Assembly (NCBI GenBank): GCA_963965975.1
Contig: OZ014423.1
Location: 2,790,001-2,854,000 of the forward strand
DNA from: Xestospongia bergquistia
Lineage: Eukaryota > Porifera > Demospongiae > Haplosclerida > Petrosiidae
Direction of reading: 5' to 3'
Length of the DNA stretch: 64,000 nucleotides
The translations under genes and the position numbers were made by a program. This document shows, piece after piece, positions 7,069-55,760 of this stretch. The notes under the pieces were generated by a model. The model ran no database searches, was not told where the DNA came from, and saw nothing but the letters and a program-made list of their open reading frames with translations. How positions within the stretch are numbered: position 1 is the stretch's first letter; each line of letters opens with the position of its first letter.

Positions 7069-10000
7069 TTAATATTCACAATATTTCAATGATTCCTCAA
7101 CAGAGGTAATATAATTTAAAAAGGGATAGTAAGTATCTTTATCCCAAATTATAATGCGAATATCACCAAGGCACTCATTGCGAGTCTTTCGCTTCTGATA
7201 GTCTACCAGAGTATCTATGATAGTTGCTGCAACAATATCTTTATCCATGCCAAACAATCCAGAACTAATAGCAGGTAAAGCAATAGAATGTAATTTTAAA
7301 TGACAACCTTCACGAAGGGCATCAAGAACAGCAGCTTTAAGAAGTCGTGCACACTCTGGCTCAGACTTTATTTCATGAGCATTAGGCCCAACAACGTGGA
7401 TTACATACTGACACTGTAGCTGTCCACCACCTGACCTCGTTGAAACAGCTGTTCCTGTTTTAATGTATCCTCCATGACGTTCTAAGGCGTCGATTGAATA
7501 TTCATAAATTTTCCCTCCACTGGCTTCATTTATTTGTTTTGCTATTCCTGCTCCATGGCTTAAAGTTTTGTTTGCTGGATTCACAATTGCTCCTACAGTT
7601 TCCTTTAACAAGTTACCATGACGAAGTGTGAGAGATCGACCATTCTTAAATTGCATAACAACTACAGGTCGAAATTGTACTCTCTCTACATTTTTTGGTT
7701 TTCCCGACCCAAATATTTTCTGCTTTACCCATTCACTACCAAACATATTACCACTGCTACTGACTGTCTTTTTGTCAGTTTGTACAGCAGTAGGACGCAT
7801 TCTCTCAATTTCATTTTCCAAATCATTCTGTACTTTATCTGCTTGAGTGGACACAATTACAAACTCCAAATTTTCTGGCACCCAATTTATAACAGTATCT
7901 TCAAACCTTGACTCCAATTCAGATATCATTTGACCCAGCTCTTCTACATGGACACCTGGAGGAAGATAAACAGATTTGCTTTCCACACCCATTTTTTCTA
8001 GACTGTTATAAGACTGTTCAAAATTGGTTAAAGCTTCATGAAGACTCTCTTGACTTGGAAACGTGAAGTGAACAGTCCTTTTACCTTCTTTATATTCTAC
8101 TCCAGCTTGAAAACCAATTCTACTGTGTTTCATCAATGTAATGATATCAGGTGACACGTCTGTTAACATATCATAATGTGAAGAGCTAGAAATTTCCCGT
8201 TGTAGTTGATTAGAAGGTATTGTAGGAGGAGATGGTTTGTGTTCAAAATTGGTGTGCGCATCTATTATAACAAGATCACAATATAAAAAGGTGTAATTAT
8301 TTCTATAAAACACTATCAAGAATTATAACACAGACTATATTAATTCACAAAAGGGAAGAAAGTACATGGGCAAACCCCTCCTCTTTTTGACAATCTGATG
8401 GTAAAGACTGCACCCCACCTATTGGAATGTGGACCAGTACCACAATGTTTATAAAGCAGTTATGAATTGTTATTGTAATTGCCACAAAAGATTGTCCTTA
8501 ACAAAGCTTGGAAAAACTTTTAGACCAATAAGTCTTTGAATATTACTGGCATTAGAAGAATCTCTTTACAGGAATCTTGCTTGACAAAAATAATTGCTTT
8601 ATAGACAATTGAATAGCTACTTCAGCCTGAAGAGTAGCAAAAGGCAAATAAAAAGGTAATGATGTGAATATAATACCACAAATATTAGAATGTAAATTAT
8701 TATCTATGATCATAAGTGCTATGTGGTATTTCCTCACATTCCATTGGAACAGTACACATACACAGTTCACTTTTAGATCATCCTCAGCTCCTCACTTGAC
8801 TAGAGCTTAGAAATCATTAATAGGTACAGAATATTCACTAGAGTCTACAGACACATTGCCATTCAATGATTACATTAATATTATTTAGTACAACATATTT
8901 TAGCAGTCACTTTGCACTGAGCTCAACTAGCTATGAATTAGCAATGGTAATATCTTACTTAGTTTGTGTGTCTGATAGTTATGTAAAATATTCTCTTTCT
9001 CTAAAACATAATTATTATCTTGAAGCATATCAAAAATGAATCAATAGTGTAATTTACAATAAATTATCCCAAGATTGTATTGATGGTGCAAATAGATGTC
9101 CAACCATTATCACCACAAACCAATGCATGATTGACAAAAGCTTCTAGGATCTTAATGCAACAGAAAAAACACTTAGAAGAACTTTCACAATATAGCAGCC
9201 TTGCTCTATGTAAGATACAAATTATACAACTACAACGAAACAGTATGATAGGTGGATAATTTCAGTTGTTACAGAACATATTCTATCACATTGATATGCA
9301 TTGACAAGATAACACACAGATATGTATAAATAAACCAACTCTTGAAAAGAAAAGGATTAACAAAACAAATTAACACACTAACCTAATTTTCCAGTTCCAT
9401 ATCTGTCATAGCCCAGTGTCAATCCAGAAAAACCTTCCTGGATATCTGTTTCACGCATTGGAAGAGTAGGCGCATCAGTCTCATCCATTTTGTTTAACAA
9501 CAGAGTATGAATGGCAGCCCTAGCATTTTGCAAATGACTCCAACAGCCAGTTATTGTAAGTGAAGAGTCATGATGAGAAAGATGACATTGCAACGAAGGG
9601 TTAATACGCTGTAAGATGTGCTGAATATATATGATGGGTATATTCATTATAAGGTCACCTTTAAAGGTGAGGGATGTCGATTCAGTGACCTACAAAAAAC
9701 AAAGCTAATCAATCTTGTCCTAACATTGAAACATAAGTTAATACTGAATGACTCACTTCATGTACACCAACTCCTAAATGCCTACCATAAGAACACTATC
9801 TTATTTTTTGTAGCAATGTGTGTATTACTTAGCTATCATCAATGAATATACGACAATTACATAGTGGGTAATGAAGTTGGGCATACACCCAGCTATATAA
9901 ACAAAATTTAATAGCAGCAGTGAGCAACACTTTTCTGCATGCATACGATGGTCTTTTGAAAATATGTTTGACATCTAACTATGGTCCATGTTTAAGGTGC

Positions 10001-11032
10001 TATCCTTTAGTATTTAAGAATACAATATATCCCATTGGCAAACGCACCCTCATTATTGTGAAGAGGACACATCTTAGGATACTCTTTAGAAAATGTTTGC
10101 TAAAAAGTAAGCATGGTACACTTGAGATCAAAATAAAAAGGGCTGAGCAAGTATTAATACAGGTTACCATTTGCATTCCAGGTCTTTTAAAGGGGTCATA
10201 ATTAAGTGATCTGGTATAAGTCATTCACCCAAGGAGGCATAAGGTGACACTGAGGCTTGTTATATACCAGTATTGTGGTATATTAGTCTAACAGAGCTAA
10301 GCCCTCCTTTCTCCAAGGATTTATATGATGTCTTTCCCATTGATAAACACCCTCTTCATGAAGTTGCTGGGCAGACAGTTCTTCTTATGCATAATATTAT
10401 GAAGCATATCTATTATGTGTGTATCTATAGATACACACGTTTTCAATAATTATTTCTATCATCACTATAACAGGCAATTTAATTGGATAGGTTGAATTCC
10501 AGCCTAGCTATTTAGGTTTTGTGTAGCCAGTTCTGCATTGGAAAGGGGTTGGCTACACAAATAATTTTATTGTCGGGGCCATAGTGTACATCTGGCTAAT
10601 TTTTTGGTATAGTCCACAAAAATTTTCTTGCTTTCAATAACACAAATGCAATAGTCATGCATAGCCTGGTCCTCCCTGCAGGGGTAGAGACTGGCTACGG
10701 GAGACTAGCCACATAAGTACATAATCTTTTCTTACCACAGATACAATAGTGGCAGCTCCTGGTACTTGTTGATTAAGTGACATGTCCACAGCTAAAACAA
10801 GGCAGTCAAAGTTAAAATTAATTACAAGTCCTTTTGTCATACCTTCTGCTTTATCAACAGACACTAGACAGTGCCCATTACCAATGTAGCAACCTTCAAC
10901 TTTTCCTTCATCAGTAACCTTTATACAATCACTAACAGACTTTTTGGCTTGAAGTTCTAACCAGTCCTTATTTGAAGAGACATGTTGAGCATAAGGAGTC
11001 TTCACAACGTACAGACCAACGGAAGAGGCCAT
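7069..11032 (-). CDS. Macro-domain protein (PARP9/PARP14-like macro, no ART domain)
   Basis: Three exons on the minus strand: 11032-10736, 9689-9383 and 8261-7069, phases 0 and 1 matching, giving 598 residues. The C-terminal third is a canonical macro domain: VNPANKTLSHGAGIAK forms the ADP-ribose distal-ribose loop, then YVIHVVGPNA, then ALPAISSGLFGMDK as the diphosphate-binding loop. Such domains bind or remove ADP-ribose. Residues about 100-400 look like the small alpha/beta (KH/RRM-like) modules that precede macro domains in PARP14, but I cannot prove this. The first exon contains a run (DCLVLAVDMSLNQQVPGAA) that could be a decayed macro start. No catalytic ADP-ribosyltransferase domain follows; the ORF stops 10-20 residues after the macro fold. 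The start ATG at 11032 is chosen because it begins the conserved-looking frame. The exon 1 link is less certain than exons 2-3. Confidence 0.8.
10518..10561. repeat. Small inverted repeat in macro-gene intron 1
   Basis: TTTGTGTAGCCA and TGGCTACACAAA, 12-bp arms around a 20-base spacer, inside the first intron of the macro gene. It may be the end of a small transposon; nothing more can be read. Confidence 0.45.
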
Positions 11033-11240: not shown

Positions 11241-14200
11241 CTATAATGACTGTTTCAGCCTTTGAAGGTATTCTTGGACAACCTACAAAAGGATGATGAA
11301 TACATACTTTCTTCTCAAATTCATACCTCAACTGGTGTAAAACCATACGGCATACTTTGGATCACATAGAATCTCATTAATACATCTGCAAGTTTCCTCC
11401 ACTTAGTAAAGTTGACAACATCATGTCTACCAGGTAGTGTATCACTCATGTCGTGACAAATGGATGAAATATCCTGTAGCATAGCACCTTAAATATAAAA
11501 AATGATAACATTGCATTGGTGACATGATAATACTACTTCTGCAAGATATCAGCAGTTTCATTACCTAAAAGAGGAATGCAAGGAATAAAATAGATGTCTT
11601 TGAATTCTTTGTAATAATGATGGTAATTGGCCTCCGTAGAAACAAGGTTTTGCAAAGATTTGAACATCTGCAACTGACTTTCATCCAATCTCTTGCAAAT
11701 TTAAATAATTCATATGAGAGAAAATGTACCATTTCTTACTTGCCATGCTCCTTGAGTAGAGCCTCTGAGATATTCAGCAGTTAATCCATCCAAGATAGCA
11801 TACATTGCCTCATAATTCTTGAGACTGTGGCAACTCTTGTCAAATAAAAATACAATCATATCAAACAATTACTTTAATAGAGACCAACCTCTGCCGTTTT
11901 GATAAAATATGAGATAATAAGGGACATGTCATTTTCATTCTTTTCCGCTAACAGAATGCTAGATATCAAGTTCGAAAACTATTTTGAGTAGTGATAGCAT
12001 CCAAGTATAATATGACATGACTGACATTTTTAGAAAATGTTTTAGCAGTCTGCAATCCAGATATCATTCCTTCTTTTTTTTCAATATTCTTTTCTCCACC
12101 TCCTTTCCATGATGTTAACAACTCTTTTAGCTACACATTTATTATAAAGGATTGATCACATTGTATAATGTATTAAGGGAGCAACTTACATGCACTTCCT
12201 TCAGCAAATTTGAGTAAATAATACACAGCTGTCTGGCTAACTCTAGTGAATTGCAATCCACCAAAACCTATATATATTGCAATTATAACATGAGCAAATG
12301 TACATGTCAATTTATGTCTTACAAAAGACGTTTTATCAGTTGTAGGCAGAATAGGTTGTGAGGATTGTCTTGGCACAATCAGTAATTGATGCGGATTGTC
12401 TCCTTTAAGTAGTCCCAGAAGCTGCTGACTACATTTGGTCATGTCACTGTTATACATCATCATTATAAGAATAGATTGCCAAAATACTAGCAAATCACCT
12501 TTCTATTTCATTCAAAAACTTTTCTAATTGATCCTTTACTGTTGAATTATTAAAGTCCTGAGGATGATATTGCAGCCAAAGCAGAATAGCATGGACAACT
12601 CTGGGCGGAGTAAAATATTGACTGGAACACAATGCAACACAAATACCTTAACCTAATAGGTATGATTGTCTCAATTTCAAAACCTTCTTGCATACTGCAA
12701 TATCTAGGAAATATGTCATGTCAGCAAATTCAATCTCCATTAGGAACTTACTTTTCTATCAATGCGTTCAGTAAAACTTCAGGTGACAAATAAGAATGAA
12801 ATACCAAAATAAAGGTGTTGACAAATTCTGAGTCTAAAAACAGTTCTTAATCACAAATACAACATTATATATAATATACCTACAACATGATGATATGTCA
12901 ATCTCTGTAGCAATTGTTCAAGAGTACCACCTATTATTTTTGGTGTTATTTCCAACTATTTGTAAAACATATGACAATATCACAGTAATACAAAGAATAT
13001 ATACCGAAAAAACTTTAGGAGGCTTTTCTTCAAAAATCACACTCTCAGCATCATCATCCTAAGATTATAATTGTAAAAATTACCCTACAATTATTTTAAG
13101 AGATATTTTTCAATAAAACAGTAATGGTAAGTCCTAAGTCCATTTGGTCACATGAAAAGCTGCAAGTAATTTAAGCAAAGTCTTCAGAATAATTATCACT
13201 CACTCTGTTGTTCTACATTCACAGGAATATAATTATGTGCATATGTTGCGATGTGTGTCAGCAGTCAATGACTTCAGTTTATAACACAAACACAAGAATA
13301 TAATTGTAAAACATTGTCCTAAGATTATTTGATGGTGCTGTTATTGCTATAAGGGACTCCATTTTGCCAAGTATAAGGACTGGGAGAGTTGGACAAACTA
13401 GGATGCTACTCAAAGACAATTTATTAGAGCATCGATTAGCCACGAAGTGCTCACAGTAGCAACAATTAATTTCATTGGTTGCAATGTGCACCAGAAGTTA
13501 CTATTTGAAAGTTCAATTCATTTGTAAGCTACAAAGGTTGCATACAACAGTGTGGAACTGAAATAGACATATTTCATGGTACAAAACAATCTTAGGATCA
13601 CCTCGCATGTGCCAGGTGGAATAACAATTAATGCAATCAATCCAGTGTTGTTACTGAACTTACACTAGGCAGCTTTATCCCTTTTCTTTTGTGTCTATCA
13701 ACAATACCAGATTCTGGTGGCTAAGCAAAATATTCATATCTGATCAGCATTAGTTCATTCTTACAGCTGTGACTCTTTGCTCTTTGTGTAATGTTTGCCC
13801 AGTCATCAATGCCACAAATTCTTGCTCTAGCTTCTCAGCATGAACTAAGGCTTTGCTGTGGTCAACTACCAGGGCCAGTGCATCACCAACCTATGCAATT
13901 TGTGAGATGTGATGTGTTTAATGGAATGTTTTTACTATCTTTGAACATAATTCATTAAGATTGGTAGCAGCTGCCATAAGCCTCATTCGATCCTTATCAC
14001 AAGCATGAACAGCTAAACAATGAGCAATCCTATTAAAAATGTTATCTGAAAACTTAACTTACTGGATGCAGACATAAGTGACATGTAAATGTCACGAATC
14101 ACCAAATCCACTTTTTCCCGATAGTTAGATAAAATGTCTTGCATATTCTTTCTTTCAACTAAATCACACTCCATTATTAAGACCTAACATATTTATAGAG

Positions 14201-17200
14201 CATAAACATATTGACCATATAACCATTACTATTACTGTAATTATTCTAAACATTCATCCCTCTAATTTCATAAATAAATAATAATTATTATTTCATGAAA
14301 ATTTATCATAAATATAAGCCTCCAATAATTCACCATCGAATTTCTTATTTGGCTCTGATGTAAATTTATGCATACAAACAGTATAGGATCTCAAATTTTC
14401 ATTTTGCTACAGACTATAAATCTATTACCAAGAATTTTTATCCTCAGAGAAAGTTCTAACAAAAAAAGTCAAACTTTGTTTCTCAAACCATTTGGCTATG
14501 ATTATAATATTATCAACAATTTGAAAAGAAATGATAGTCAAAGCTTGGAAGGGACAAAGTTCCATAACAAGCAATGGGACACAGTGCAAGGAAGTAGTCC
14601 CAATATGATAACAGTCCTTAGGGTGGACCGGCCATTAACAAATGCTAAGCTCAAGAAATGAGGTCATGACGGCATTGCTAAAGACCACACCCACCATGCA
14701 ACATATCAACATTACTGTACAGTATGACTACTATTGCATGGATGGTGTCTTTGATACAACCACACATCAGGCAATATTATATCTATAATAGTGACACAAA
14801 CTTACTTCTTCTTGTAAATGCTTTGCTGTTACTAGAAGAGTCTTCACAGTAGAACAGTACACTTTCCTGTTATTTTCTTGGCATTGTTGACATAAAAGAT
14901 TAACACTCTGTGTAACAGTCAGTAAAAGACCTTCTGCCACTCTAGTAATGGTCTAGAAAATAGGCTAAGTTGCATTTCTCACACATAAGCACCTTATTCA
15001 GTAAGTGATGATGTCTCAAATGCTGCACTGCAGCAACATCAATGCACTATTGAATTAATGAAATAAGTCTTAAATAATAAAAAAGATAATACATATTAAA
15101 AATTAAAACTGTGTAAATATGTAGATTTTGAAAGCAACAAATACTGTATGATTAACTGCACACATTGACTATATAAGTAAGCATGTTGAATAAAATAATA
15201 AAGAGAGAGAATGCTGTTCACCTTTGAACTATCAATACAAAATAAGTGTCGTGATTGTTGTTTAGAAGGGCTGGAAGGTATTTGGCCTAACAATTTATCT
15301 TCAAAACATTTCCTCTGTACAGACATTTGATGACTACACAGTCGTGATCTAAAGAGAGACTAGGATTATTCCAACTTGTGAAAAGAAGCCAAATAACCTT
15401 CCAGATTTGTTATGAGCATCCTCTCCAGTCTCTCCCAAATAACCAAGTGGCAAATGATTGGGGTGTGATAATAATCCAACACTAACAGTAGCATATCCAA
15501 CCTCCTCAGCATACTCTTCTGTTTCTATACCTTCCATGAAAAATTGTTACATTAGACTTAATAATTAGCCATTGTTCACATATACTGTGAAACAATATCA
15601 ATAATATGAGATATTTACCTTTATCACATTCTCTCTGAGGATATGTGATCCTTGACTTTCTTTCCCTACCATGGCGAGGACGACTTGATGCTGTACCAGA
15701 TGATTTCTCTGTAACTGAATCAGAAGAACTAGAAAGTTGGTCTGTGAGATATGATGACGACAGTGAAGTCGTACGTTGGATTCCACTGTCAATTCTATTA
15801 GTTTCTGGTCAGAGAAACGATAGGATCAATTAACATACAGCTCAAAATTGATACCTTTGACATAAGCCCGTCCTCGAACCCATGGCATTTGAAGTAATTC
15901 CCTTCCACTTATGACTATCTTATGCAAAAGAGATGCACATTGTGCCACAATTAGAAAATCTAACAATGCAGCAACAAGTTGATGACCTGCTAAAAGCATC
16001 TCCAGAAAAGACACTGTAAAGTAAATATAAGTCATAAATAAGTAAATGTACATAATTTTGTACCTAAAGGAGGATCAGCTAAAGCTGCTACTTTAACTCG
16101 GTTAACAAGAGTATCTATAGAAACTTGTAGTTTATACTCTATATCAGTCACACGACTTGTTAATGGATGAAGATGAATGACAGCATATCTATATAAGTGA
16201 AGAAAGTGAGATTGTGGAATAACATTACTTGTTTGTAGCTTTAATTTTCTCTAATGCCTTGTTTGTGCTAGTTAGCATATTGTTTGCCAATGCAGCAAAA
16301 TGATCTGTCTTGTTTTCATAAGCTGCTCGTACAAGTCTAAGGACAAGAAAATATAAATGGAATTTAACTCATAGTTCCAACCCTAAGTAGGACGTGATTA
16401 CTGTAAAAATAAGCACACCAGAGACAGCACCTGATCCAGTGAAAACAGACTCTTCCTGAAGAACAAGTGAGTCATTTCCTCAACATAATCCATGAATTCA
16501 CGTACATTAAAAGGACCTTTAACAAAGTTTTCTGGATCAGTAGCATGAAGCAAGTGTCCAGAGACAGCCACAGCATAAAGACAGTCATATGTCTTTCCAG
16601 CTAAATCAGAAATATATCTAATCAGCTGAGTAAAATTATCTAATGACATATCAAAATCAGTTTTACGTGCTCTGCTAAGACCACACAACTCTTTGGTCAC
16701 AGTTATAAGCTGCAAACATTACATACAGAGTGAATCAACAAATTATGCCATATCTATACCTCTCTGCTATAGTCAGTGATGAGTTCAAGAAGAAGAGTTA
16801 CAACCAAACGAAATTCTTCTGAAGGACAATGCTTTGTCACCAGAAACTCTCCATTGTCCACAAGATTTCGGATGTCCTTCACTAACTAAAAGACAATAAT
16901 AAATATAGCTGTTATGGGCATATAATGCCTATGAGAAAAATTGCCTGATAAAACTTTTCTCAAGGGCATTAAGTATTACTTAAAACATCCTTTTCAGTAT
17001 TTCACAGAAATTACAGCATGAGAAATATTGGTGCTTAATGTTATATGCATAGGTTAATCAAACATGCTGGACAAAGTTGCATAGAAACATGATAGTTATA
17101 TTAAGTAATAATACTCATTGTCAATGATAAATATCTGAGCAAAAATTGATTCAGGTGAGTTTCTACTGGTGAGAAGGAGACTTTGTGTTCTTTCTAGGCA

Positions 17201-20200
17201 TATCAAGGACACAAACAACTTCATTTCTTTTGTTGCATGACCATGTCTACCATTATAAGAACTTTCATACCACATGTGCTCTGTACAAAAGATGTAGTAT
17301 GGCCATGCATCATACAAAAAGTAATTGGAATATTTTTAAAAAGAAGATAATGCTAAAATGCTAGCAATGTAGGGATTCTGAGAATATGACATGTTAAACT
17401 ACTATTCTTTACAATTTAGAAACACTTGAAATGAAAGGTAGGTGCTTATAAAAACCTGAAAGATCATTATAAGATGTGAGGCCATGATGTGTATCAGATT
17501 TAATCAAGTGGCCTTTTCCAGGAAATACTATATTCAATTATTTTCAGGCCTTAATACTGAAATCTAAGTAACTCATCAGAATCAGCACAGTATGTTAAGT
17601 GTGTTAATCCAACACAACTTTTGTAGCGAGACATCAGTAAGCCATGCTCTAAATCTACTTAATGACAACTTCCTGTGGTACATGTACATTTAACAACTAA
17701 AGGTGTAGCATGCTCAGCAGGACATTTCTCCACAGGAAACAGAGTAAATAAGTATACTCCATTTTAATGTTGCTGCAGTGCAGTAATGTGTGTATCAAAT
17801 GTGCAATGAGAATTGTACGCTTTAATAACTGCTTTGCAAATTTCTAATGTTGTTACTTGAAAACAGTTATTGCCATAATGTACTAAATTTGTAGCCCATG
17901 ATGCATTCTTGATTGAAGTAATATATCACAAAGGGTTTCAATGACATCACTCGACAAGAGCATAAATGTAAAAGTCATCCATTTTGTAGTACTTTTGTTG
18001 CTGTAAGAGACTGGAGTTTTGTTAAATTAAAACATAGCTGTGTTACAGAACTAAGAAGCATTTATCAGACATACTCAATACAAAGATGTAGCTATAAGAG
18101 TAATTGCCTTCATGGGTGGAGGGTGCAAGACTGCTAGTAGTTACTTACGTGGGTTATATCATTCCCTGTTTGAAGGTCACACACAACAATTTTGAAAATG
18201 ACATACATACCATAATACATACAAAATAATGTTAGGATTGCTTGGCACATGAAGTATGTCAAGCAAAAGTAAACAACTACCATAATTTCACACCCTAAAA
18301 CTAGTTTACTTACAACTTACAGAAGATATTTGTGGTTTCAAAGTATCCCAGAGGTAGTGACGAGGTAATAGATTACTACTTGGTTTCCCACCATTTGCAA
18401 CAGTTTCAGAAAGACCTATTCAGAATGTCTTCACACAAAACATTAATAAATAAGACTTACGTCTTAATCTCTCTTGGACATCAAACACTGAAGCAGGCAA
18501 GTCTTGTAATGCCTCATTAATTATTAGCTCAACATTTGCAGTCCCATGATCTATAACTATACAATACTTAGAATAAAGATCAAATATCCATTGTATCTTT
18601 ACCTTCATCCTTGGGTACAATACTTGAGTCACTTACTGGTAGAAGCTTTTCATCAAAGTAATTCTCTTTGCGCATACATGTATGTTCACCAAACTTGCTA
18701 TCATTCACTGATTTGAGATGAATCTCAAGCAATGAACTATGGGATCCATATTGCAACAGAAGATTGAGTGGGCATTCTTTCTTCTTCAGAGTTCTAATTT
18801 CTATCAAAAATGTATTGAAACATTCAGATTAAAAGATAAAACAAAAAAAGACATAAAAACGCTAGAGGCGAGAAACAATGAAAGCATTTGTAGTGCAAAG
18901 TCTTCATGCAACCATGAAGCAACAATATACAACAAAATTATAAATATCAAACCTGTCCCACAGTACCCTCTTTCTAGTCTAGCAAAATGTTTTATAACTA
19001 TTGCTCCATTCTAAGCTATTGCAAAGCTTGAAGTCACAAACATTTTGGTGAGGTATATAACTGCTTTATTCATAGATTTTTTGCTGAGACTTTATGGTTA
19101 AAACATATACTAAGCTATGTATTGTTGATATACTTTACACTCTGCTTTTAGCAGCCATACCAAAGCAAAAGTAGTGTCATCATTCTATTAGGAACACTCA
19201 TAAAGTGAATAGGGGACTCAAGCATAAAAGGGAATTACTCATGACTGGTGAATGTGTTGCCTTAAAAAGTTTACTGTCTGAGTGTCTGTAATTGATTTTT
19301 TGCTATCATGCAAAGATATATGTACTTAGTACAACCATACATATTTAACATATGCAAAACATTAAGTATCTATGGTACAACTAATCCTTGCCATGTGTCA
19401 GATGATTCTTTTCCTGAAGAACATAGTCTTCTACACAACCAGTCAGTCCAAGGGAACATATGAGTTGGTCAATGAGCTCCTCAGATGACGTATTATTGCC
19501 AACTAATAATGACTTAGTCTGAATTGCATAACCACGATCATATGTAATTTTCATGACTCCTTTATATATAAGATCCTATGGAGAAGTGATCATAACACAT
19601 AAATGTTAGGTACTTATGGCAATGCCATGATGTGTCACCAAAAGTATTTCATCTTGGTACACTTGCTATCACATTATGAGTAAAGTATGTTTTAAAGTGA
19701 CAATATGATCACTACATATACACAACATTTTACATTCTAGAGACATAAGAAAAGTAAGTAGTAAGGCCAATATGGCTTGTGAAGCACACCTAAAAATTTT
19801 AGGGTTAATTGACCATTTATGACTGTGCAGCTCTTAATTAAACATCATAAAGCAATAGCTAACAGTAATCAGAAAAAGAACGAATACAGCAGATTATCAA
19901 CTAATTGACAATTGTGCTTCTAACGAAATCCTTTTCTAAGAGGTAAGTAAAGAAAAAAGGAATATCTATATAGTCGTAACATTACCAATATCCTAAAATG
20001 TGAAAATTGTTGAACATGAAAACCTCAGATGTCAAAAAGTGGTCAGGTCAGTCAGGTAATGGCCTAACCACTTTTTGATATCTGAGATTTCATGGTTTTT
20101 CAGGGTTTACAGCCCTGTTTTTCGTCTATAATAGCGAAGTTGTAAAGAACAGAAGTAAATGGAATAAATCATGTGACTTAGATTTCTGAAAAGGATAACA

Positions 20201-20353
20201 CCATCTTCAAGTGTAATCTGAAGGCTCATCAATCTCAGCTTGCTTTTTTTGCAACAGCTATTGGATTAAAGCTCAATTTAAAGTACATAATACATGTCCT
20301 TTGTAAAATATGTCACTGATAGCTATAACATAAGTACGTCAACAAAAAAATAT

Positions 20354-20398
<45 letters not shown>

Positions 20399-20612
20399 GT
20401 GGTTTGGGATTTCAGCTGCAAAAGAAAAGCCTTCCTAAATGTACATGCAGCATGAACCTTACCACAGCAGGAGTCGAGAGAGGAAAAGAAGACTCCTTGG
20501 TCTTTCTGATTTTTTTGTTGTAATGTTCAATTTTCTTAAGGAGATCCTTACGGGCTGAGTTGCGTTCACAGGCTGTGAAATCATTCACATCTAGTGGATT
20601 TGGAGAAGCCAT
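11241..20612 (-). CDS. Ras-family GEF with N-terminal RA domain, long helical region, REM and CDC25 domains
   Basis: I reconstruct 32 exons totalling 3,786 nt (1,261 residues), first to last: 20612-20463, 19575-19392, 18800-18603, 18550-18461, 18415-18321, 16885-16760, 16709-16417, 16336-16229, 16188-16064, 16013-15855, 15804-15619, 15530-15398, 15348-15222, 15046-14993, 14952-14806, 14183-14059, 14029-13936, 13890-13765, 13720-13664, 13058-13005, 12955-12880, 12833-12752, 12703-12653, 12621-12499, 12446-12323, 12267-12190, 12130-12026, 11978-11889, 11835-11740, 11691-11565, 11487-11327, 11282-11241. Residues about 52-135 form a Ras-association domain (KGVMKITYDRG; KKECPLNLLLQYG). About 240-510 and 660-840 are helical, with a Ser-rich linker (510-570) between. 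About 878-985 is REM (GGTLEQLLQRLTYH; DSEFVNTFILVFHSY). About 1029-1250 is CDC25 (KNYEAMYAILDGL; IPCIPLLGAMLQDI). The product should load GTP on a Ras/Rap-type GTPase. All phases close. Two junctions are atypical: a GC-AG intron 2 and an uncertain exon 7 donor. No DH-PH pair, so it is not SOS. Confidence 0.85.
20015..20094. repeat. Fold-back repeat in RasGEF intron 1
   Basis: Arms of about 33 bp at 20015-20047 and 20063-20094 (core AACCTCAGATGTCAAAAAGT against its complement), with three or four mismatches and a 15-base loop. It lies in the intron between the first two RasGEF exons and looks like a small MITE or snapback element. Confidence 0.7.
20357..20398. repeat. (AT)n microsatellite
   Basis: About 42 bases of alternating AT in RasGEF intron 1, just downstream of exon 1. 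Confidence 0.95.
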
Positions 20613-45200: not shown

Positions 45201-48055
45201 CCAATGAAAATGAGAACTGAATTGAAAGGAATGTCCAACATTGGTTTCTCTCTTGAAGTTTTTAACACTTTTCATAAATTGGCGAGCCATTGGTTCAGTA
45301 ATCCTTTTCTCTAGTTCATTAAAGGCAAGAGTGTTCTCATAGCAAAAGAGGTTTAAGTGCTCTAGTTTACATTCATCTTCTTCCAAAGGTGTTGTATTAT
45401 AAGATACAACACATATACCAGAAAAGTCATCACTACCAAATGTATTGTGATCAAACATAGCGAGAAGAAGAATAGCACCATCTTGTTTGAGTTGTGAAGG
45501 ATCAGCAGTCCTAACAGTAATATTACAATGAGAAAAAGACCTGGATGTTTGGGTAGATTAGCGTTTTCAATATTCATTTTTATTTCACCAAACAAAAAAT
45601 GTATTGACACCAAACGTTTCAACAGTCAGACTGACTATCTTCGTCAGTGGCTTAAATAATGTCTATTGAAAGTTAATACATTTTTTGTTTTGTGAAATAA
45701 GAATGAATATTGAAAGTAGTAATATTACAATTACAGTATATACACATATATAGTTACTGCAACATATTGTCTTTACATATCTTGTAGAGACAAAATTTGA
45801 AGCTTAGAATTCAAATGTCTCATTGAAGATTGGATCTAATGTTTGCTTCTGCACAGTGGTTTTAAGGGATTTGTGTTCAACAGCAGTAAATATTATTGCT
45901 GGTAGTAGGTACAACTTGACATAAGGGTTGCTTTTTCCTAAATCAATATGACTATGACATATGAAACTAGTTGACTCACCACTTCAATCTAGACCAGGAA
46001 TATGCTCAGCAAACAATACTTCAACTTCTTTGTAGAGTCATAAATATGACTTATATGAAGGACACCAAATTCATCCTTTGAAAGAACCTTTAAAATATAT
46101 ATAAACATTAATGTACAAGTATAACAATACTTCAATACCTGATGTTTTACTAAATCATGACAAAATTTCTTTATAACATCTTCTGTTGATAACACAGAAA
46201 CACTAAGTTCATCCAACAAGGTCTGCAAAGAAACTCATTACATGTCATAAGTTTAGTTACTCACTGTGTAGTCCTCTGTCTCCAGTTCAGTATGTGATAA
46301 TCCATTTCCATCAGCTTCAAAAAAGTCACCTAGTGTAATTAGAGTTACTCTGAAGTATTTATACTTGTGACAATTAACAGCTGATTTGCATGACAACTTG
46401 ACATATTCTCCCTTTAACTTGCTGATAATATCTAGCCATATTTCCTTCATAATGCTGATATGATAATAGTAACAGCAATGTCTAGATATGATAATTATTT
46501 ACTACCTTAGGAAGATTGGAATCAATAAAGCTTGTCCAGTTTGCTCATATTAGTAGCAATATAGTGCAACAGTGGTTCTAATACCTAACACACAGTATTG
46601 ATATTATATTGACATTTCCTGACTTGACTAACTTTGTCTGAAGGCATATCATTATTAGCTTCCATAATACCAGGTAAATAAGTGAATATACTTGGTGACA
46701 ACTAGAGACACAATGTTTCTATCTATGTATATAATATATGTACTACACCTTTCCCTTGATGATCTTTACTATTGAATCAATCTTGTTGAAAATTTCCTCA
46801 TCAACATTATTCAATATGCTAACAATCAAAGAACAAGCATGCTGGCTTAGCTTTAGTCCTTCAACTGTTTTTCTTTATTAAGCCATTTTCTTTCTTCATC
46901 CAACCATTGGTAATAAGCCAGTAAATTTAGTTCAGTTTCACTATTTTGCAATACTTGCTTAATATGATGGATATTATTAAGAGTGATGCAAAGCTAAAAA
47001 ATATTTAATCATAGCACACAGAGAATTGTTTGTTAGAGTTATTTTACTTTGTCAGTGACTATAAAGTGTCCATGTTTATCAATATAATAATCAGGTTCAA
47101 ATTTATGAAACATCAGCTCAGCATAGTAAGTAGACAGTTCACACAGGTTCTAAATAGTAAATCATTTATAATATATTGACAATGATGTGTACCTGTACAA
47201 CTGTTACAAAGTAACCTATAGACTGTTTTCTGTCTGGCCACTTTAAATCATTCCAGAAGGAAATTACCTAGTATAATAAAGATTTACAAAAAGCCTAACT
47301 TAAATTTTCATACTTGCAAGAAGAAGGCATGAGTATCTACAGCAGAAGATGAGAAAGATCCTCTGTCTGTATACTTGACAATGGTGTCCAATTCAATGGC
47401 TTTTAACAGCCTGTCTTTATCTTTATTCTGTGCAAAATGTATCAACTTTGAATGAAAAGGTTTAAACCAAAGATGATAGGAAATAACTGTAAGCTCCACA
47501 ACTTCCATTTTTCCTAAAAAACTATAGGTATATAAATAAATGAATAAAAGATATATGAATACAGGAATGTTAGAATATATACATGTATATTAATGAACTA
47601 AAAAAGTCCAAATTTACTCAGAATCAACATTGTGAGCAAACACAGAGTTCTTGAAAAATTTTATAAATTTCATATGTAACAAGAATAATATCTGGATGGT
47701 CTTCTTCAAATCCAAATTGACTCTTAACCTCACTATATAGCTAAGTACAAAGTTAGAAAATGTGAAGTCAGATAGGACTGACCAAATTGTCCAAAGTAGT
47801 AAAGAAAGGAGAGAAATAGTCTACACCTATTTTAATGAAGAATAAAAATATGGCTTGAGTTTTGAGGTTTTACTTACTCCATAAACATAGAATGAATTTT
47901 GCTATGTACTTGCTCACACTGTTTTGAACAATGAAAACACAGTGCTTTAAAGGCAACCATATTAGTTAGAGAGATCATACACAGGTATATATACTTACAC
48001 TATGTGCTGGCATTAGACTTCCTGATGATGTCAGCATCCATTGTGAAACAGCAGT
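45201..48055 (-). pseudogene. Decayed Munc13-4/BAIAP3-type gene (MUN region plus C2 domain)
   Basis: Minus-strand pieces in family order: 48055-47999, 47918-47878, about 47742-47640 (LYSEVKSQFGFEEDHPDIILV), about 47508-47310, about 47150-47050 (LCELSTYYAELMFHKFEPDYY), about 47000-46860 (LCITLNNIHHIKQVL), about 46590-46505 (LEPLLHYIATNMSKLD), 46450-46265 (TLGDFFEADGNGL), 46224-46140 (LSTEDVIKKFCHDLVKHQ), then a C2 domain (SNPYVKLYLLP; TLDPIFNETFEF; MFDHNTFGSDDFSGICVVS). This matches the MUN-C2 half of UNC13D/BAIAP3, factors that tether vesicles and open syntaxin. Frame breaks occur after YEIYK, after KLDK and after STKKL, and stops follow GLD and FEF, so it cannot make a full protein. A fold-back element splits the C2. 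Introns survive. Repeated assembly error is the alternative but less likely. Confidence 0.7.
45530..45717. mobile_element. 188-bp fold-back insertion inside the C2 region
   Basis: AGTAATATTACAAT is found exactly on both sides (45516-45529 and 45718-45731), a 14-bp target duplication. The insert contains inverted arms of about 38 bp (around 45564-45602 and 45675-45714). On the minus strand the loop has CTGACGA, a short self-complementary stretch (AGTCA-GTC-TGACT), then GAAACG and GTGTC, the order of a hammerhead ribozyme core. It interrupts the C2 coding sequence just before the DHNTFG strand. Confidence 0.6.
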
Positions 48056-48239
48056 CTAAGCAGTCAATGTCAATACTAATATATTAACAACATCATTGAC
48101 AGTACTTGTATAGCTGATGTCAATAGAATTTTATAATTTAGATTTGGATGTTTTCAAACTTTAAAATGCTGAATCTGGTAAACATCATAAAGAATCCTTT
48201 CAATAAGATTATAATTTATTTATTATTTATTATTATAAT

Positions 48240-51200
48240 TAATAATGTCACACACAGAAGACTGCCCAGCCACCAATGGCTTATGAGTGACAAGTTAGTT
48301 GCAAAATAAAAGTGATATGATATAAATAAAATTTTGGATTAAGTAATAAACTTACAGTGACTATACAAAACATGAAAGGAAAACAAAATTAATAATTAAA
48401 AAACTAAATTTGATCTTAAAATAAACATTTCATTAAAATATAACGACGATATATGGCTGAATTTGTTTGATAAAATGATAGTGAGTTTGTCTGTGTGGGG
48501 AAGTGAGTAAAAGAATGGTACTTTAGAAGTGATCGTGTTGTAAAGTTTGAGTCGTATGTTATTGTACTTTGGACAGAACAGGACAAAATGAGGTACATCT
48601 TCCATTGAATTGGTGTTGCAAAGAATGCATAGTCTATCCCTTAGAGGTATCTTAGGTACATGAAAACGCCCCCTCTCAACTGCTAGGGGCAGACAACCTC
48701 CACATATGGCCGCCATAGTGCTACGTCTTTTTGCAGTCATGTTGGCAAGTACATAACTAGGTGGCAATGGCTCCTGTTGTAATTGTCTATATATTACTAA
48801 CTTACCTCCTGTCTCAGATGAAGGATCTAAAGGTTTATTTAGTTGAGACTGCCAGTCTTCATTGGCTATAGTGTGTATTATATTATGTAGTTCTGAAGGT
48901 ATTTGCCAATTAAGTAAAGATGGCTACCTTCAATGGAGTCTGTCAATTCGTAGCTTATCTGGTGTTCCTGTGATGTTGAAGTTGGAAGCACATTTACCAA
49001 GAAGACTTCTTCATCATGACCTGTTGCATATGTAAAAGTCTAGGCTCGTGTAAGAACTGTAGTTGTTCAAAAAATAAGAAGAAATGTACAAATTGCCTGC
49101 CAAGCGGATTGAATAGGTGTAAAAACTACCTTGAAACAAGTGAGAATAGCACAGAGGGAAGTACTGGAGACCCAGATGCAATCCAAAGCAATATTGCCAT
49201 CACAAATAGCGTTCTACCCATCCAAGTACTTTTAACTCCAATTAATGTCCCCTCCACTCGTGGAAGCACATGGCAGGAAGAGCTATCCAATAGCCAAGCT
49301 CAAAGAAGCGATTCAAATTACTGTGATTCAAATTACTGTGAGTGGCCAGATCCAATCCCTATAGCAGTTCCCTCATTATCTTGGGGAGATAGTGATAGCA
49401 CCATGTTCATTGCCAACGTCAATAAAGCCTATGCAGAGGTGATTCATTGGAAATCTAATTTTTTCCCTGTTCTCTTTGGTTCTATTGGAAAGAGTTTCGT
49501 TACCAAGTTAGCCAGACTTTATCGTGCCTTCGCAATAGCCTCTGCCTTGGAAGGAATAGCATTGAAGGCTGCTACAGTTTTGACTGTCCTAGTCTTGCAG
49601 AGACCTTACATCCGTTCTAAGGCTAAGGTCCACGTAAATTGTCTGCAGAGAAGAATGGAGAGTTGGTCGAATGGACAGGTTGACGAGCTCTTAGCAGAGA
49701 GCAAAACTATCCAAGCAAGCACATTCAAACAGAGTAATCAGTGTCGCTCTTCGAAAAACACTCCCTCCATTTCCAGATCGTTTGCAAAACTAATGTTCCA
49801 AGGGAAATGCAACTCTGCTTTCAGTATACTTGTTGAAGACGAAAAATTGGGAGGTGTTTTGAACGAGAATGATAAGCTGCCCACTGGTGAAATTGTCTGT
49901 GATGTTCTGTGTCAGAAACACCCTAAAGCTCAAGGCCTAAATCAAGAGGCTCTAATCGCCCAGCCAACCCCCCCAATCACTCCTAACCCAGTTATCTTCG
50001 ACTGCTTAGATGCCGACCTCGTCCGTCACGTGGCCAAACAGACAAAAGGCTCTGCGGGTTCCTCTGGTCTCAATGCTCATGAAGTCCCTAGAAGAATATT
50101 ATCGAAAGCAATTTTATTCATTCTCAAAAGTGACATCCAGGAGGCCGCCGGCTCAAACCAACTCTGTGGTGGCCAGATAGCAGGGATAGAAGCAGCAGTT
50201 CATTCGGTGAGTCAATTGTTTAACGATGAAAACTCCGAAGCCATGCTGCTGGTTGACGCAAATAATGCCTTTAACAGTCTAAATCGTGCTTCAGCTTTGA
50301 TGAACATGTCAACAATTTGTCCTCCCCTTTCGACAGTCCTAATGAACATCTAGAGTGAAAGTTCTGATCTTATTCTAGGCACTTGCACTTTGCAGTCCCA
50401 GGAAGGCACAACGCAGGGAGATCCACTGGCCATGCCATTCTATGCCCTCGCCACAAGACCGCTGATCGATGCATTAGACAAAGATCTTCCAGATCTGAGA
50501 CAGATATGGTACGCTGATGATGCCACCACTGTTGGAAAATTGTGTGACCTAAAGTGTTGGTGGGAAAAGCTCTCCATGATTGGACCTTCATTTGGTTACT
50601 ATGTAAACCCGAGCAAGACCTGGCTTGTTATAAAAGAAAAGTGTGTTTCCGCTGCTTCTTATTTATTTGGTGAGTCAAACGTAAACATAACCACTGAGGG
50701 CCATCCTGTTCTTGGCTCCCCTATCGGTAAACCAGAATTTATCTCTAATTTTGTGGATAGAAAAGTGAACCAATGGATAAGAGAAATCGAGAAGCTAACT
50801 GAAGTTGCCAATAGTCAACCACATGCAGCCTATGCTGCTATGACACATGGATTCACTAGCAAGTGGACTTATCTCACCAGGACAATGCCCAATATAAGCG
50901 AGCTCCTAGTTCCCCTAGAACAAACCATCAGGAGCCGGTTAATTCCAAAAATAACTGGAAGAGAGGCCCCCAATGACTCCGAAAGACAACTGTTTGCACT
51001 CCCAACAAGACATGGTGGGTTGAACCTCACAGACCCAGCTGCAATTGCCAAGGAACAGTTTATCACCTCTAAAAATATTACCAAACCTCTCGTCGATCTT
51101 CTCGCAGCAAAAAACAATACCTACCCGTACAGCGTTCTCGAGGACCAAATCAACGCAAAAATGAGCATCAAAGCAAAACAACAAAAACATACCATAAAAC

Positions 51201-54200
51201 ATGCTGGTAGTATAAGGGAGTCTTTGCCTCAACCCCTACAACTCGCAATGGATCTTGGAAGTGAGAAAGGCACATCCAGCTGGCTCTCTGCCTTACCTCT
51301 GGAAGAGCATAAATTTGTCCTGCACAAAACTGCCTTTCGTGATGCAATAGCTCTGAGGTATGGATGGACCCTTCAAATATTCCTTCTCACTGTGTGTGCA
51401 GTCAAGCTTTTCAATACAGCACGCCCTCTCATGTCCTAGAGGCGGCTATCGCAGTATTCGACACAACGAGCTAAGGGACGTCACTGCCTCTCTACTCAAG
51501 GAAACTTGTCATGGAGTTGCAACCGAACCATCACTGCAACCTGTGACCAGTGAATCCCTCGATGGTGCCTCTACAAACAAACATGATGGTGCCCGCCTCG
51601 ATATTGTAGCATACAGTTTTTGGGTTAGTTCTTTTGAAAGGACATTCTTTGATGTAAGGGTGTTCAACCCTCTAGTCCCTTCTAACAGAAAGTACCCACT
51701 GCCTGCTTCATATAGGAATCATGAAAAAGAAAAGAAGAGGCAATACGAACAACAAATCCGTGAGATTGAGCATTCCTCATTCTGTCCTTTTTGTGTTTTC
51801 ACTGACTGGGGGACTTGCACCCGCCGCCACTGCATTTTACAAACGACTAGCATCTCAACTATCTGGCAAATGGAAACAACCCTATGGGTCCACAATGGGC
51901 TGGCTCAGGTGCCGTATCTCATTTTCCCTCTTGAGATCATGCATTATGTCCATTCGAGGAGCCAGATCATCAGCACACATTTTCAATCATCATTTCGCAT
52001 CAACTGTCGACCTAACAATTGCAGACACTAACCTAGTCCCATAATTGTACCCTTTCACTATGTCACCATAGTATCATTTTCACTTCTATCTGCTCTGCTT
52101 GTACATGTATTAATAACTTTTGGTTGTAATATAAGTAGTTAAGGAAATGACATTATAAATATATGTATCATATGACATTGTTTAATAAAAAAAAAGTTGG
52201 CAATTACATTTATACCTCAAAAAAAAAAGTTCTGAAGGTATTGGGTTCATGCTTTTATTATATCCTCTTATTTTACAGATTAATTTCATGTAATGCCAAG
52301 ACCAAGTGTGTTTTCCTAAATTACCTTAGTCAGTAGATTGTTTGAATAGACTCTGTAGTAAGGGGTTACATGTATTACTTTCTAATTGTATAAAGAGCTT
52401 AAGAATGATATTCATTTGTCTATAATGGTGGGAAGCCATCCAATTTCTCCTGTTAAAGCAACTAGAGGCATGGACTTATTACATCCTAAGAAGAAGCGCA
52501 TTGCATTGTTTTTGTACAATGGTTAACTGGGGATGTTCTTGGTAGCCCCATATACAAGCACCGTAGTCTAATATTGGAGTTACTAATGATTTATATAACA
52601 ATGTATATGTCTGATAAAGAAAGCCACCAAATTTTTTAGAACATGCACAAACTCCTGCCTGAGCTTTCCTGGCTGATCTTGCAGTATGTTCAAAAGTTTG
52701 TTTACAGTCCAAATATTGATTAAATCATATTCCTAAGTATTTATATTCATTACAATAGTCTATGATGATACTATTACATGCAATGGGAAAAGATTATCTG
52801 GCTTTTCTTTTTGGTCTAATATGCAGTACTTTAGTTTTATTGATGTTCATAGCTAAACGATTCTTGTCACACCATGTAGCTACTCTACAAATAATGTGTT
52901 GTCAATCATTTTCATTGTTGGCAAACAGTGCAATATCATCAGCATACAATAGGATACACATAACTATGTCCTCTTCTGTATTTACTTCTAAATTTAAATT
53001 TTTAACATAGGGAACTAGGTCATTAATATATAAATTCAAAAGTGCTGGCGATAGGAGGCAAGCCTGTTTGACACCCCTATTTACTGTAAACTACTCAATG
53101 CCAGTACCATTTATTTCTAAACAATAATTAACTGTAGAATATAACGCTTTAAGATTTTCTAACAAATTACCATTAATTCCATAACATAACAACTTATACC
53201 AAAGTAAATTCCTATCTACACTATCAAATCCCTTCTTTAAATCAATAAAACACATAAATGTATCTTTATTGATAATTTTTCTATTTTGTGCTATTAAACA
53301 GTGAGAGCATGCTCAAGACAGTTATGACCACTTCTAAATCCTAGTTGTTCTTGTACAAGTATTTCATTGTCTTCTAGCCAGTAAGTTAAACGTTTATTTA
53401 ATATACTTGTATATGCTTTAAGTAAATTACATTGGAGGGCAATTCCCATATAACTTAGAGGGTCTGTAAGATTGCCTGTTTTCAGGACTGGTAATATGTT
53501 TGCTTTATGCCATAAATTAGGGAAACAACTAGTTAAAAAACATGTTCTGAAAAGCTGGGTAATAAAAGGAATAAGATTAGGATGTTTAAAGTAATCTGCA
53601 TATATGTTATCAGGTCCACAAGATTTCTTAGTAGGTGCTAGATAAATTGCCATATGGATTTCATCAAACAAAAGGTCATCATTGAGTATAGATGTATCAA
53701 GGCATTTACTTTTAATATTTATGTATGTAAAGTAATAATCTATATATCTATCTTGTACAATGGAGCAATTATATAGTTTGTAGTAAGTGTCTTTCCAAAC
53801 TTGTAGTATTGTATCCTTGTTGGTACAAATATTACCCTGTATATTGACTTCCCAGGGGATGGTTGATTTCTTGTTAAAATAACTGATAGATAGCTTTTTG
53901 ACATTCTTCCAAAATGATCTAGGATTGTGCTTTTGTAAGTCTAATAGTTCTTGTCTTTGGGTTGAAAGAAACAGTCTTTTTTATGTCTAACTAGTTTGTC
54001 AAAGTTTTGTTGGAGAGTCAAATAAGATTGCTTAATGCTTACTACTGATTTTTTTTAACCATGCTTTAAGTGCAAGTCTAACTTCTTTCCTCATAACATG
54101 AAGATCACCATCCCACCATGGTTTGTGAAATTTTTTTTGATTTTCCTTTTTACTTTTACGATCTAAGTGTAATGAGTTAGAAATAAAAGAACAAAATTTT

Positions 54201-55760
54201 CATAAACACTGTCCACTCCTTCACTACTAGAAATTAATGAACATAAATCATCAATATGACGTAAGGCCTCCTCATCTTTTAAATAATTTGGGATAACCTG
54301 TTTAGGTAGTCTAACTACAGAGGAAGAGAGTGCATGTGTGGTATTATGGATAGGGTTATTAAATTTAAATTCCCAAAGTAATATAGAATGATCTGGGACA
54401 ATGCTATCTATGTGAATGTTAAATTTGTCCATGAAGTCATGCATTAATTCTATTTGAAAAGATGTAATTAGGTGAAAGTTTGAGGTAGATATAATACAAT
54501 AGTCTACTACTGCTGATCTTCTGTATGAGACAGAGGTGTACTTATTAGAAATAGGACCAAATTGCCCATTAAGCATGCAAAAGTCAGTTTCTTCTAGGAA
54601 ATGTATAAAAGACAATCCTTGTGAGTTGGTATTTAGGTCACATATACTTCTTAATGGTAAAGACAATGGGTTCGCCTCTGGTATATCAATAGTATGCCCA
54701 CAACAAGCATTGAAATCACCACAAACAACAATATGGCCTAAGGACTGGTATTATAGTATTTGCTGCTTCAGTATATTGAAGAATTCAAAAGAGTGGTCAC
54801 CTCTAGAATTAGTAGCAGGGGGAAGATAGCATACACAGAACAGGCTATATCTTTAGATTTTAGGTGTCTTAGTTGTAACCATAGACAGTCTTTTACTTTA
54901 TCATTTAAGATTGATACACTAAAGTTGTTAAAAAGATGATTAGATACTAAAAAGCCAACACCACCAAATCTTTTTTTCGCTCTGTTATTTTCTTTAACCC
55001 TGTTATTACCAAACCAGGTGTAATAGGGAATATCAATTTTATCATTGAATCTTAGGTGAGACTCAACAATTCCAACAATATCTCTATTAAGACTGTGAAT
55101 TACAGCTTCTCTTAAGTTACTATTTCTATGATACCAACCACCAACATTCCAACATGTACAGGTAACACAAAAAGACTTAACACATGAGTTATTTACATTT
55201 ACATTATTTACATTTTTTACATTAACACCACAACCAGGGCCCTTGTCAACAGATAAAGTGTGCATATCAGACACCTGACCTGTTAATTGATTCTTTGGAT
55301 GGGTGGGGGGTCTACCACAGTAGATTGAGGACACTTCTTGGCTTGAGCTGACATCCTCTGTGCATAAGTGTGATGTACCATGGTAGTTGGTAGTAGAGGG
55401 GTTGGACGCACTTGTGATGGTTGATGTAATATTGTAGACATTGGAGTACAAGGATGTTGTTCAATAGGGAGCAGTGGAGTTGAAAGTAGGGAGGGCAGGA
55501 TGGGAGGTATGAGTGGTGGTAGTACTGGCTGTGATTGTGGTTGGTTTAAGGACTTCTGAATACGAGGGTGCTGTATTGTAGGGAACAGTGAAGTTGGATG
55601 TAAAGGGGTAGGGATAGATGGTACTTGTGATGGTTGAGGAAATGGGTGATGATAAAATTGATGTGGAGGAGGATGATAAGGAGATAAAACTTTCAATAAC
55701 AGCACATGGAAATAGAAAAATAGTATAAGCTGAAATGCAGTGTAGCACCAAAATTATACA
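48240..55760 (-). mobile_element. APE-type non-LTR retrotransposon (LINE), minus strand, split by another LINE
   Basis: Read on the minus strand: a Pro-rich leader (about 55705-55280), an apurinic-type endonuclease region (about 55200-54165; CWNVGGWYHRNSN, VDYCIISTS, SIVPDHSIL), reverse transcriptase (about 53671-52760; KKSCGPDNIYADY, LGFRSGHNCLEHAL, YADD at 52946-52935), and a C-terminal part with a zinc motif C-x2-C-x8-H-x4-C (RLCILCNTNSMEDVPHFVLFC) at 48767-48396. About 4.1 kb remain once the inserted LINE is removed, and the C-terminal frame runs straight through the empty site. Several stops and shifts make it inactive. TAA-rich repeats at 48210-48250 may be the 3' tail. The outer ends are approximate. 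Confidence 0.85.
48904..52227 (+). mobile_element. Plus-strand retrotransposon (LINE-like) with Cys-rich leader, RT and nuclease-like C-terminus
   Basis: Bounded by a 15-bp direct repeat AGTTCTGAAGGTATT (48889-48903 and 52228-52242) and ending in an A-rich tail, so it inserted by target-primed reverse transcription. The first ORF starts at 49016 with a Cys cluster (CCICKSLGSCKNCSCSKNKK). The RT part has VDANNAFNSLNR, EGTTQGDPLAMPFYAL and WYADDATTVG (YADD at 50510-50521). The C-terminal part has ARLDIVAYSFW and FFDVRVFNP, resembling a PD-(D/E)xK nuclease, then GWLRCRISFSLLRS. A TAG at 50351 splits the RT. Frame shifts lie near 51370 and 51795. Compared with relatives I remember from other invertebrates, about 60 residues seem missing between GLNAHE and VPRRILSKA. 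I can give no family name. Confidence 0.8.

Follow-up and report, generated by a model that had tools for sequence, protein, structure and literature searches.

The position and kind of accessory domains determine what activates a Ras-family exchange factor (GEF). RA domains of several effectors bind GTP-loaded Ras-family proteins, as described in two reports (PMC8163975; PMC5147862), and the first of these also lists RA domains that bind Ras weakly, for example those of RASSF7-10 (PMC8163975), which counts against the explanation that we favor below. In C3G (RAPGEF1), regions located ahead of the REM-CDC25 unit control activity. According to PMC9896810, the N-terminal domain of this protein binds REM and favors activity, and a segment of the linker binds and blocks the catalytic domain. 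New domain orders are not rare among Ras-family GEFs.

Here, we analyzed a 64-kb stretch of DNA, called the window throughout (C13:2790001-2854000 in a genome whose 21 contigs total 146 Mb), and describe a gene whose predicted product carries RA at the beginning and REM-CDC25 at the end. The most likely reading, to which we assign a probability of roughly 55%, is a single animal-type gene for an RA-regulated, divergent Ras-family GEF. No GEF with RA in first position was found in a search confined to the literature, mostly open-access papers, including PMC1273635, PMC8163975, PMC9896810, and PMC5147862; within this scope, the search agrees with the first-pass annotation of this DNA, which knew of no GEF with RA first and a long helical region behind it. 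Relatives of the gene were likewise absent from viral and prokaryote contig collections queried with six peptide patterns each, as expected for an animal gene. By its gene set, the genome is likely to be that of an animal, a sponge being no more than a guess: a silicatein-type pattern and innexin both went unmatched, the innexin negative being weak since its control matched nowhere.

Gene model and domain order

The gene runs on the minus strand from 20612 to 11241, and its 32 exons join in phase to 3,750 nt, encoding 1,249 amino acids and a stop codon (Table 1). The first-pass annotation had arrived at the same ends and the same number of exons in phase and, with 1,261 residues, at a close but not identical length, the comparison covering ends, exon number, and length only. 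All 31 acceptors are AG and 30 of the 31 donors are GT, the exception being the GC donor of intron 2 within the RA domain. Introns are mostly short (median, 50 nt; 25 of 31 between 40 and 90 nt), the longer ones being introns 1, 2, 5, 13, 15, and 19. The N-terminus is set by the in-frame stop ahead of the ATG, barring an exon spliced in from upstream.

Because splice sites were selected for phase retention, the open chain by itself is weak evidence. The chain is supported by the RA domain, unbroken across intron 2, and by the REM and CDC25 domains, unbroken across several introns. Further support came from a codon model trained on the Pfam-supported exons and a neighboring macro-domain open reading frame (ORF) and applied to the 19 left-out exons, with exon 24 in its older version. 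In 18 of these 19 exons, the assigned frame outscored both forward alternatives, and 16 scored above at least 95% of intron segments, the misses being exons 8, 14, and 32. Exons 14 and 32 scored higher in a reverse-strand frame, and exon 26, a training exon, in another forward frame. Exon 24 was placed at 12600, which lengthens the adjoining intron from 25 to 46 nt; the accompanying rise of the Pfam REM score from 58.6 to 64.6 bits also supports the chain. A home-made spliced profile aligner returned the same position, which is no independent check, since its profile contained the corrected window protein and introns shorter than 36 nt were forbidden. The junction of exons 27 and 28 is ambiguous by three residues.

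In a Pfam search, RA, RasGEF_N, and RasGEF were the only families to exceed their cut-offs in the 1,249-residue protein, all three within the same open chain, in agreement with the order claimed in the first-pass annotation, RA first and REM-CDC25 last. As far as the gene model goes, RA does come first, with a long stretch ahead of REM-CDC25. In a genome search, the RA profile also matched exon 2 alone (22.7 bits). SH2, DH, PH, SH3, cNMP, and PDZ domains were not found in the window protein by Pfam.

Table 1. Exons, domains, and predicted regions of the RA-first gene, in window coordinates
Feature	Window position	Strand	Basis
Whole gene	11241..20612	-	32 exons; in-phase chain of 1,249 aa and codon-model support
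Exons 1-8	20612-20463, 19575-19392, 18800-18603, 18550-18461, 18415-18321, 16885-16760, 16709-16417, 16336-16229	-	
Exons 9-16	16188-16064, 16013-15855, 15804-15619, 15530-15398, 15348-15222, 15046-14993, 14952-14806, 14183-14063	-	
Exons 17-24	14012-13936, 13890-13765, 13720-13664, 13058-13005, 12955-12880, 12833-12752, 12703-12647, 12600-12499	-	
Exons 25-32	12446-12323, 12267-12190, 12130-12026, 11978-11889, 11835-11740, 11691-11565, 11487-11327, 11282-11241	-	
Exon 1, start codon and N-terminus, aa 1-50	20463..20612	-	ATG, in-frame stop 15 nt upstream
RA domain, aa 59-141, exons 2-3, spanning GC-AG intron 2	18712..19551	-	PF00788, E 3.2e-8, 34.5 bits, cut-off 21
First probably helical region, about aa 180-508 (~330 residues)	15859..18545	-	Helix moment > strand moment in 13/16 segments
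Ser-rich linker, about aa 509-660	15041..15858	-	Composition, 18% Ser
Second probably helical region, about aa 661-822 (~160 residues)	13798..15040	-	No Pro, 34% L/I/V/M; helix moment > strand moment in 6/8 segments
REM domain (RasGEF_N), aa 877-970	12516..12937	-	PF00618, E 1.1e-17, 64.6 bits
CDC25 catalytic domain (RasGEF), aa 1026-1213	11396..12243	-	PF00617, E 2.2e-30, 106.3 bits

The macro-domain ORF lies on the minus strand at window positions 7069-8322 (PF01661, E 2.1e-27). Between it and the GEF gene, a short ORF without Pfam match starts at 11032 on the same strand, about 210 bases past the GEF stop. Elsewhere in the window, long ORFs on the plus strand (48980-52031) contain Cys-rich motifs and the reverse-transcriptase-like motifs QGDPLAM and YADD, recognized by eye, and are likely a mobile element; G+C content is higher at 48001-52000 (0.418), and the first of these ORFs had no Pfam match at 0.01. 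LINE-like ORFs at 53294-55460 on the minus strand resemble endonuclease and reverse transcriptase by eye, and the one tested was likewise without a Pfam match at 0.01. An Rfam search of the whole 64-kb window at gathering thresholds was negative.

Divergence of the CDC25 domain and its relatives in the genome

A RasGEF profile search of the genome gave 40 exon-level matches, covered by 19 regions and the window. CDC25 domains of the 19 regions were rebuilt with the home-made spliced aligner, and a 20-row tree was computed from 15 of them, the window, and four references, none of them C3G; L039, L040, L046, and L047 were left out as fragments or near-duplicates. The window CDC25 fell into no supported group, and its pairing with L029, its closest row by identity (26%), lacked support (52/4). 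Forcing it together with L041 (p-AU 0.432), SOS (0.431), or the EPAC group (0.112) was not rejected, so that the tree is compatible with several ancestries of the gene.

Several other regions could be related to described families. L044 clusters with SOS2 (starred), with three PPxIPPR-type motifs further downstream. EPAC2 is joined in the tree by L033 and L032 (starred), L033 matching EPAC2 chains at about 1e-71. Presumably, the CDC25 domain of L041 is C3G-like; in a motif scan of five of the 19 regions, three Crk-type motifs were seen upstream of it in raw translation. The window gene is unlikely to be C3G or SOS itself, as the marks of these proteins are carried by L041 and L044; the tree is compatible with kinship. 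RA matches near CDC25 were detected at two other places in the genome, both described here by match coordinates and not by complete gene models: at C11:6844155-6847774, RA follows CDC25 as in RalGDS, and at C12:528281-530407, an RA match of 22 bits (cut-off, 21 bits) lies between REM and CDC25. L031 has RGL2 as best match, with an RA match after the CDC25 match. We take L036 to resemble RalGPS and L040 to resemble RASGEF1. Four closely related CDC25 genes, L030, L038, L039, and L042, form an expansion (L030, L038, and L042 starred; L039 almost identical to L038 by eye), which includes two equal-scoring places on C9, at 2747368 and 2749982, 2.6 kb apart. A weak CDC25 fragment, L047 (C11:5744500-5754400), is assumed to resemble the NSP group (BCAR3/SHEP1). 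A CAS_C match occurs as well, at C14:619391, so that the genome may contain the two partners, NSP and Cas.

The window CDC25 has the longest end branch of the tree (1.89 versus a median of 0.88). In 48 columns, identity among the other 19 rows reaches 60% or more; the window CDC25 keeps 25 of these, the lowest share of any fully covered row, whereas 12 others with 46 to 48 columns filled match 30 to 41. The count is biased toward these rows, from which the consensus was derived. A few of the misses may stem from the ambiguous splice of exons 27 and 28 and from local misalignment around residues 1077 and 1132. Many core positions are retained, such as A1028, Q1030, L1031, E1046, N1115, P1180, G1183, N1208, and K1211. 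Deviations include M1096, where 19 of 19 other rows have Arg, and D1195/M1196, replacing a Gly and an Asn retained in 12 and 9 of 15 others, respectively. Judging from these replacements and the low consensus retention, catalysis may be weakened or absent. Among solved structures, the best matches are to exchange factors, namely Cdc25 (chain 7nzz, 1.4e-25) and SOS2 (2.6e-20), in a search run on a 1,256-residue draft of the protein.

The main rival to our reading takes this divergence one step further, with a CDC25 domain devoid of exchange activity and a protein that would act as a scaffold through RA and the helices, comparable to the NSP proteins, in which the CDC25-like domain is a binding module. 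The branch length, the low retention, the loss of a residue common to all other rows, and the presence elsewhere in the genome of the NSP-like fragment L047 are consistent with this idea. However, the REM domain is retained with a good score and the consensus count is tilted toward the rows that helped to define it. NSP proteins, moreover, possess an SH2 domain, of which the window protein showed no trace in Pfam, and are devoid of REM. We regard a non-catalytic scaffold as less likely than a divergent GEF, which is the preferred reading.

One gene or two, and the region between RA and REM

A further possibility is that the model fuses two neighboring genes, one for an RA protein (exons 1 to 5) and one for a helical REM-CDC25 protein (exons 6 to 32), or that it is to be split at intron 19. 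Introns 5 and 19 measure 1,435 and 605 nt, and read-through past exon 5 ends within four residues. When the six long introns were scanned for ATTAAA and AATAAA, one or more of these hexamers occurred in introns 2, 5, and 19. Yet introns 5 and 19 both preserve phase, and exons 6, 14, 16, and 20, each behind a longer intron, have an in-frame stop directly upstream in the form of the acceptor TAG. None of these exons can thus simply start a second gene; a break at exon 6 or 20 leaves only a first exon hidden within the intron, and since the second gene would need such an unseen exon, a split into two genes is unlikely. Exons 4 and 5, in which the first helical part begins, are tied to RA across introns of only 52 and 45 nt.

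In the single gene that we prefer, 735 residues separate RA and REM. About 490 of them look helical and about 150 form the Ser-rich linker, so that the first-pass estimate of about 700 residues of helical protein was somewhat high. Helical character was read only from a simple propensity and moment scan of 20-residue segments, in which the helix moment was larger than the strand moment for 19 of 24 segments from the helical parts, versus 4 of 8 from the linker. Neither part matched a solved PDB chain at E ≤ 10, and no Pfam family scored above cut-off, the second part giving sub-cut-off matches only. One of these, FtsJ (PF01728; 0.0019 for the piece, 0.026 for the whole protein), lay below the curated cut-off and was taken as chance. 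Paralogs of the helical parts were not detected among 20 scored candidates in the genome; the only match outside the gene was to the REM region (C1:19241975, 33% identity). An AlphaFold model of exon 7 alone consisted of four helices with a mean pLDDT of 42, too poor for a fold search. Identity with Cas was rejected, the sole CAS_C (FAT-like) match in the genome belonging to another gene.

The first-pass annotation had likened the helices to talin, vinculin, or FAT-type bundles, which would connect GTPase activation with adhesion; on such a reading, adhesion or tension would be coupled to the activation of Ras-family proteins. The richness of some stretches in Leu and Ala, together with their helix-type moments, agrees with this notion, as does C3G, an adhesion-promoting Rap GEF with an E-cadherin binding site in its N-terminal domain (PMC9896810), but with neither a paralog, nor a solved relative, nor a Pfam match above cut-off, and with CAS_C located in a different gene, the similarity is one of look-alikes and the notion very improbable.

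Proposed relay and comparison with known exchange factors

If the protein is indeed an RA-regulated GEF, one Ras-family exchange factor would sense one GTPase and then act either on that GTPase or on a different one. At the N-terminus, RA would bind GTP-loaded Ras or Rap, as its domain type suggests. This binding would recruit the protein to the membrane and release a restraint imposed by the helical regions and the Ser-rich linker, whereupon the C-terminal REM-CDC25 would open the nucleotide site of a Ras-family GTPase. Past the domain order, we infer each of these steps by analogy. A Ras sensor in first position, followed by a long helical module ahead of the catalytic part, would wire a Ras-to-Ras relay in a new way, and this possible relay sits in an animal-type genome that retains standard GEFs too. 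It is tempting to go further and to propose, tentatively and at well below even odds, a distinct and undescribed animal Ras-GEF family that combines an N-terminal Ras sensor, a helical module of about 640 residues with a Ser-rich hinge, and a REM-CDC25 unit with an altered catalytic surface, in which a novel coupling, mechanical or conformational, might place one GTPase under the control of another and the GTPase specificity might be unusual.

With the NSP proteins BCAR3 and SHEP1, the window protein shares a divergent CDC25-like domain, but it differs from them in having REM and no SH2. SOS and Cdc25 have the REM-CDC25 module in common with it and provide its best solved-structure matches; no DH, PH, or SH3 domain was found in the window protein, and it is another locus, L044, that groups with SOS2. 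To our knowledge, C3G has no RA domain. The general layout of C3G, an N-terminal domain, a long linker, and a C-terminal REM-CDC25, as described in PMC9896810, resembles that of the window protein. The same source assigns SH3-binding Pro motifs to C3G (PMC9896810), whereas the window protein has 0 matches to P..[LVI]P.[KR] and L041 has three. RA, REM, and CDC25 are all present in the EPAC/RAPGEF2 group, yet RA is located there between REM and CDC25, as the C12 matches suggest, and no cNMP or PDZ domain was found in the window protein. RalGDS and RGL likewise combine all three domains. In these, RA comes after CDC25, as suggested by the C11 matches, whereas in the protein described here RA (aa 59-141) stands first and CDC25 (aa 1026-1213) follows.
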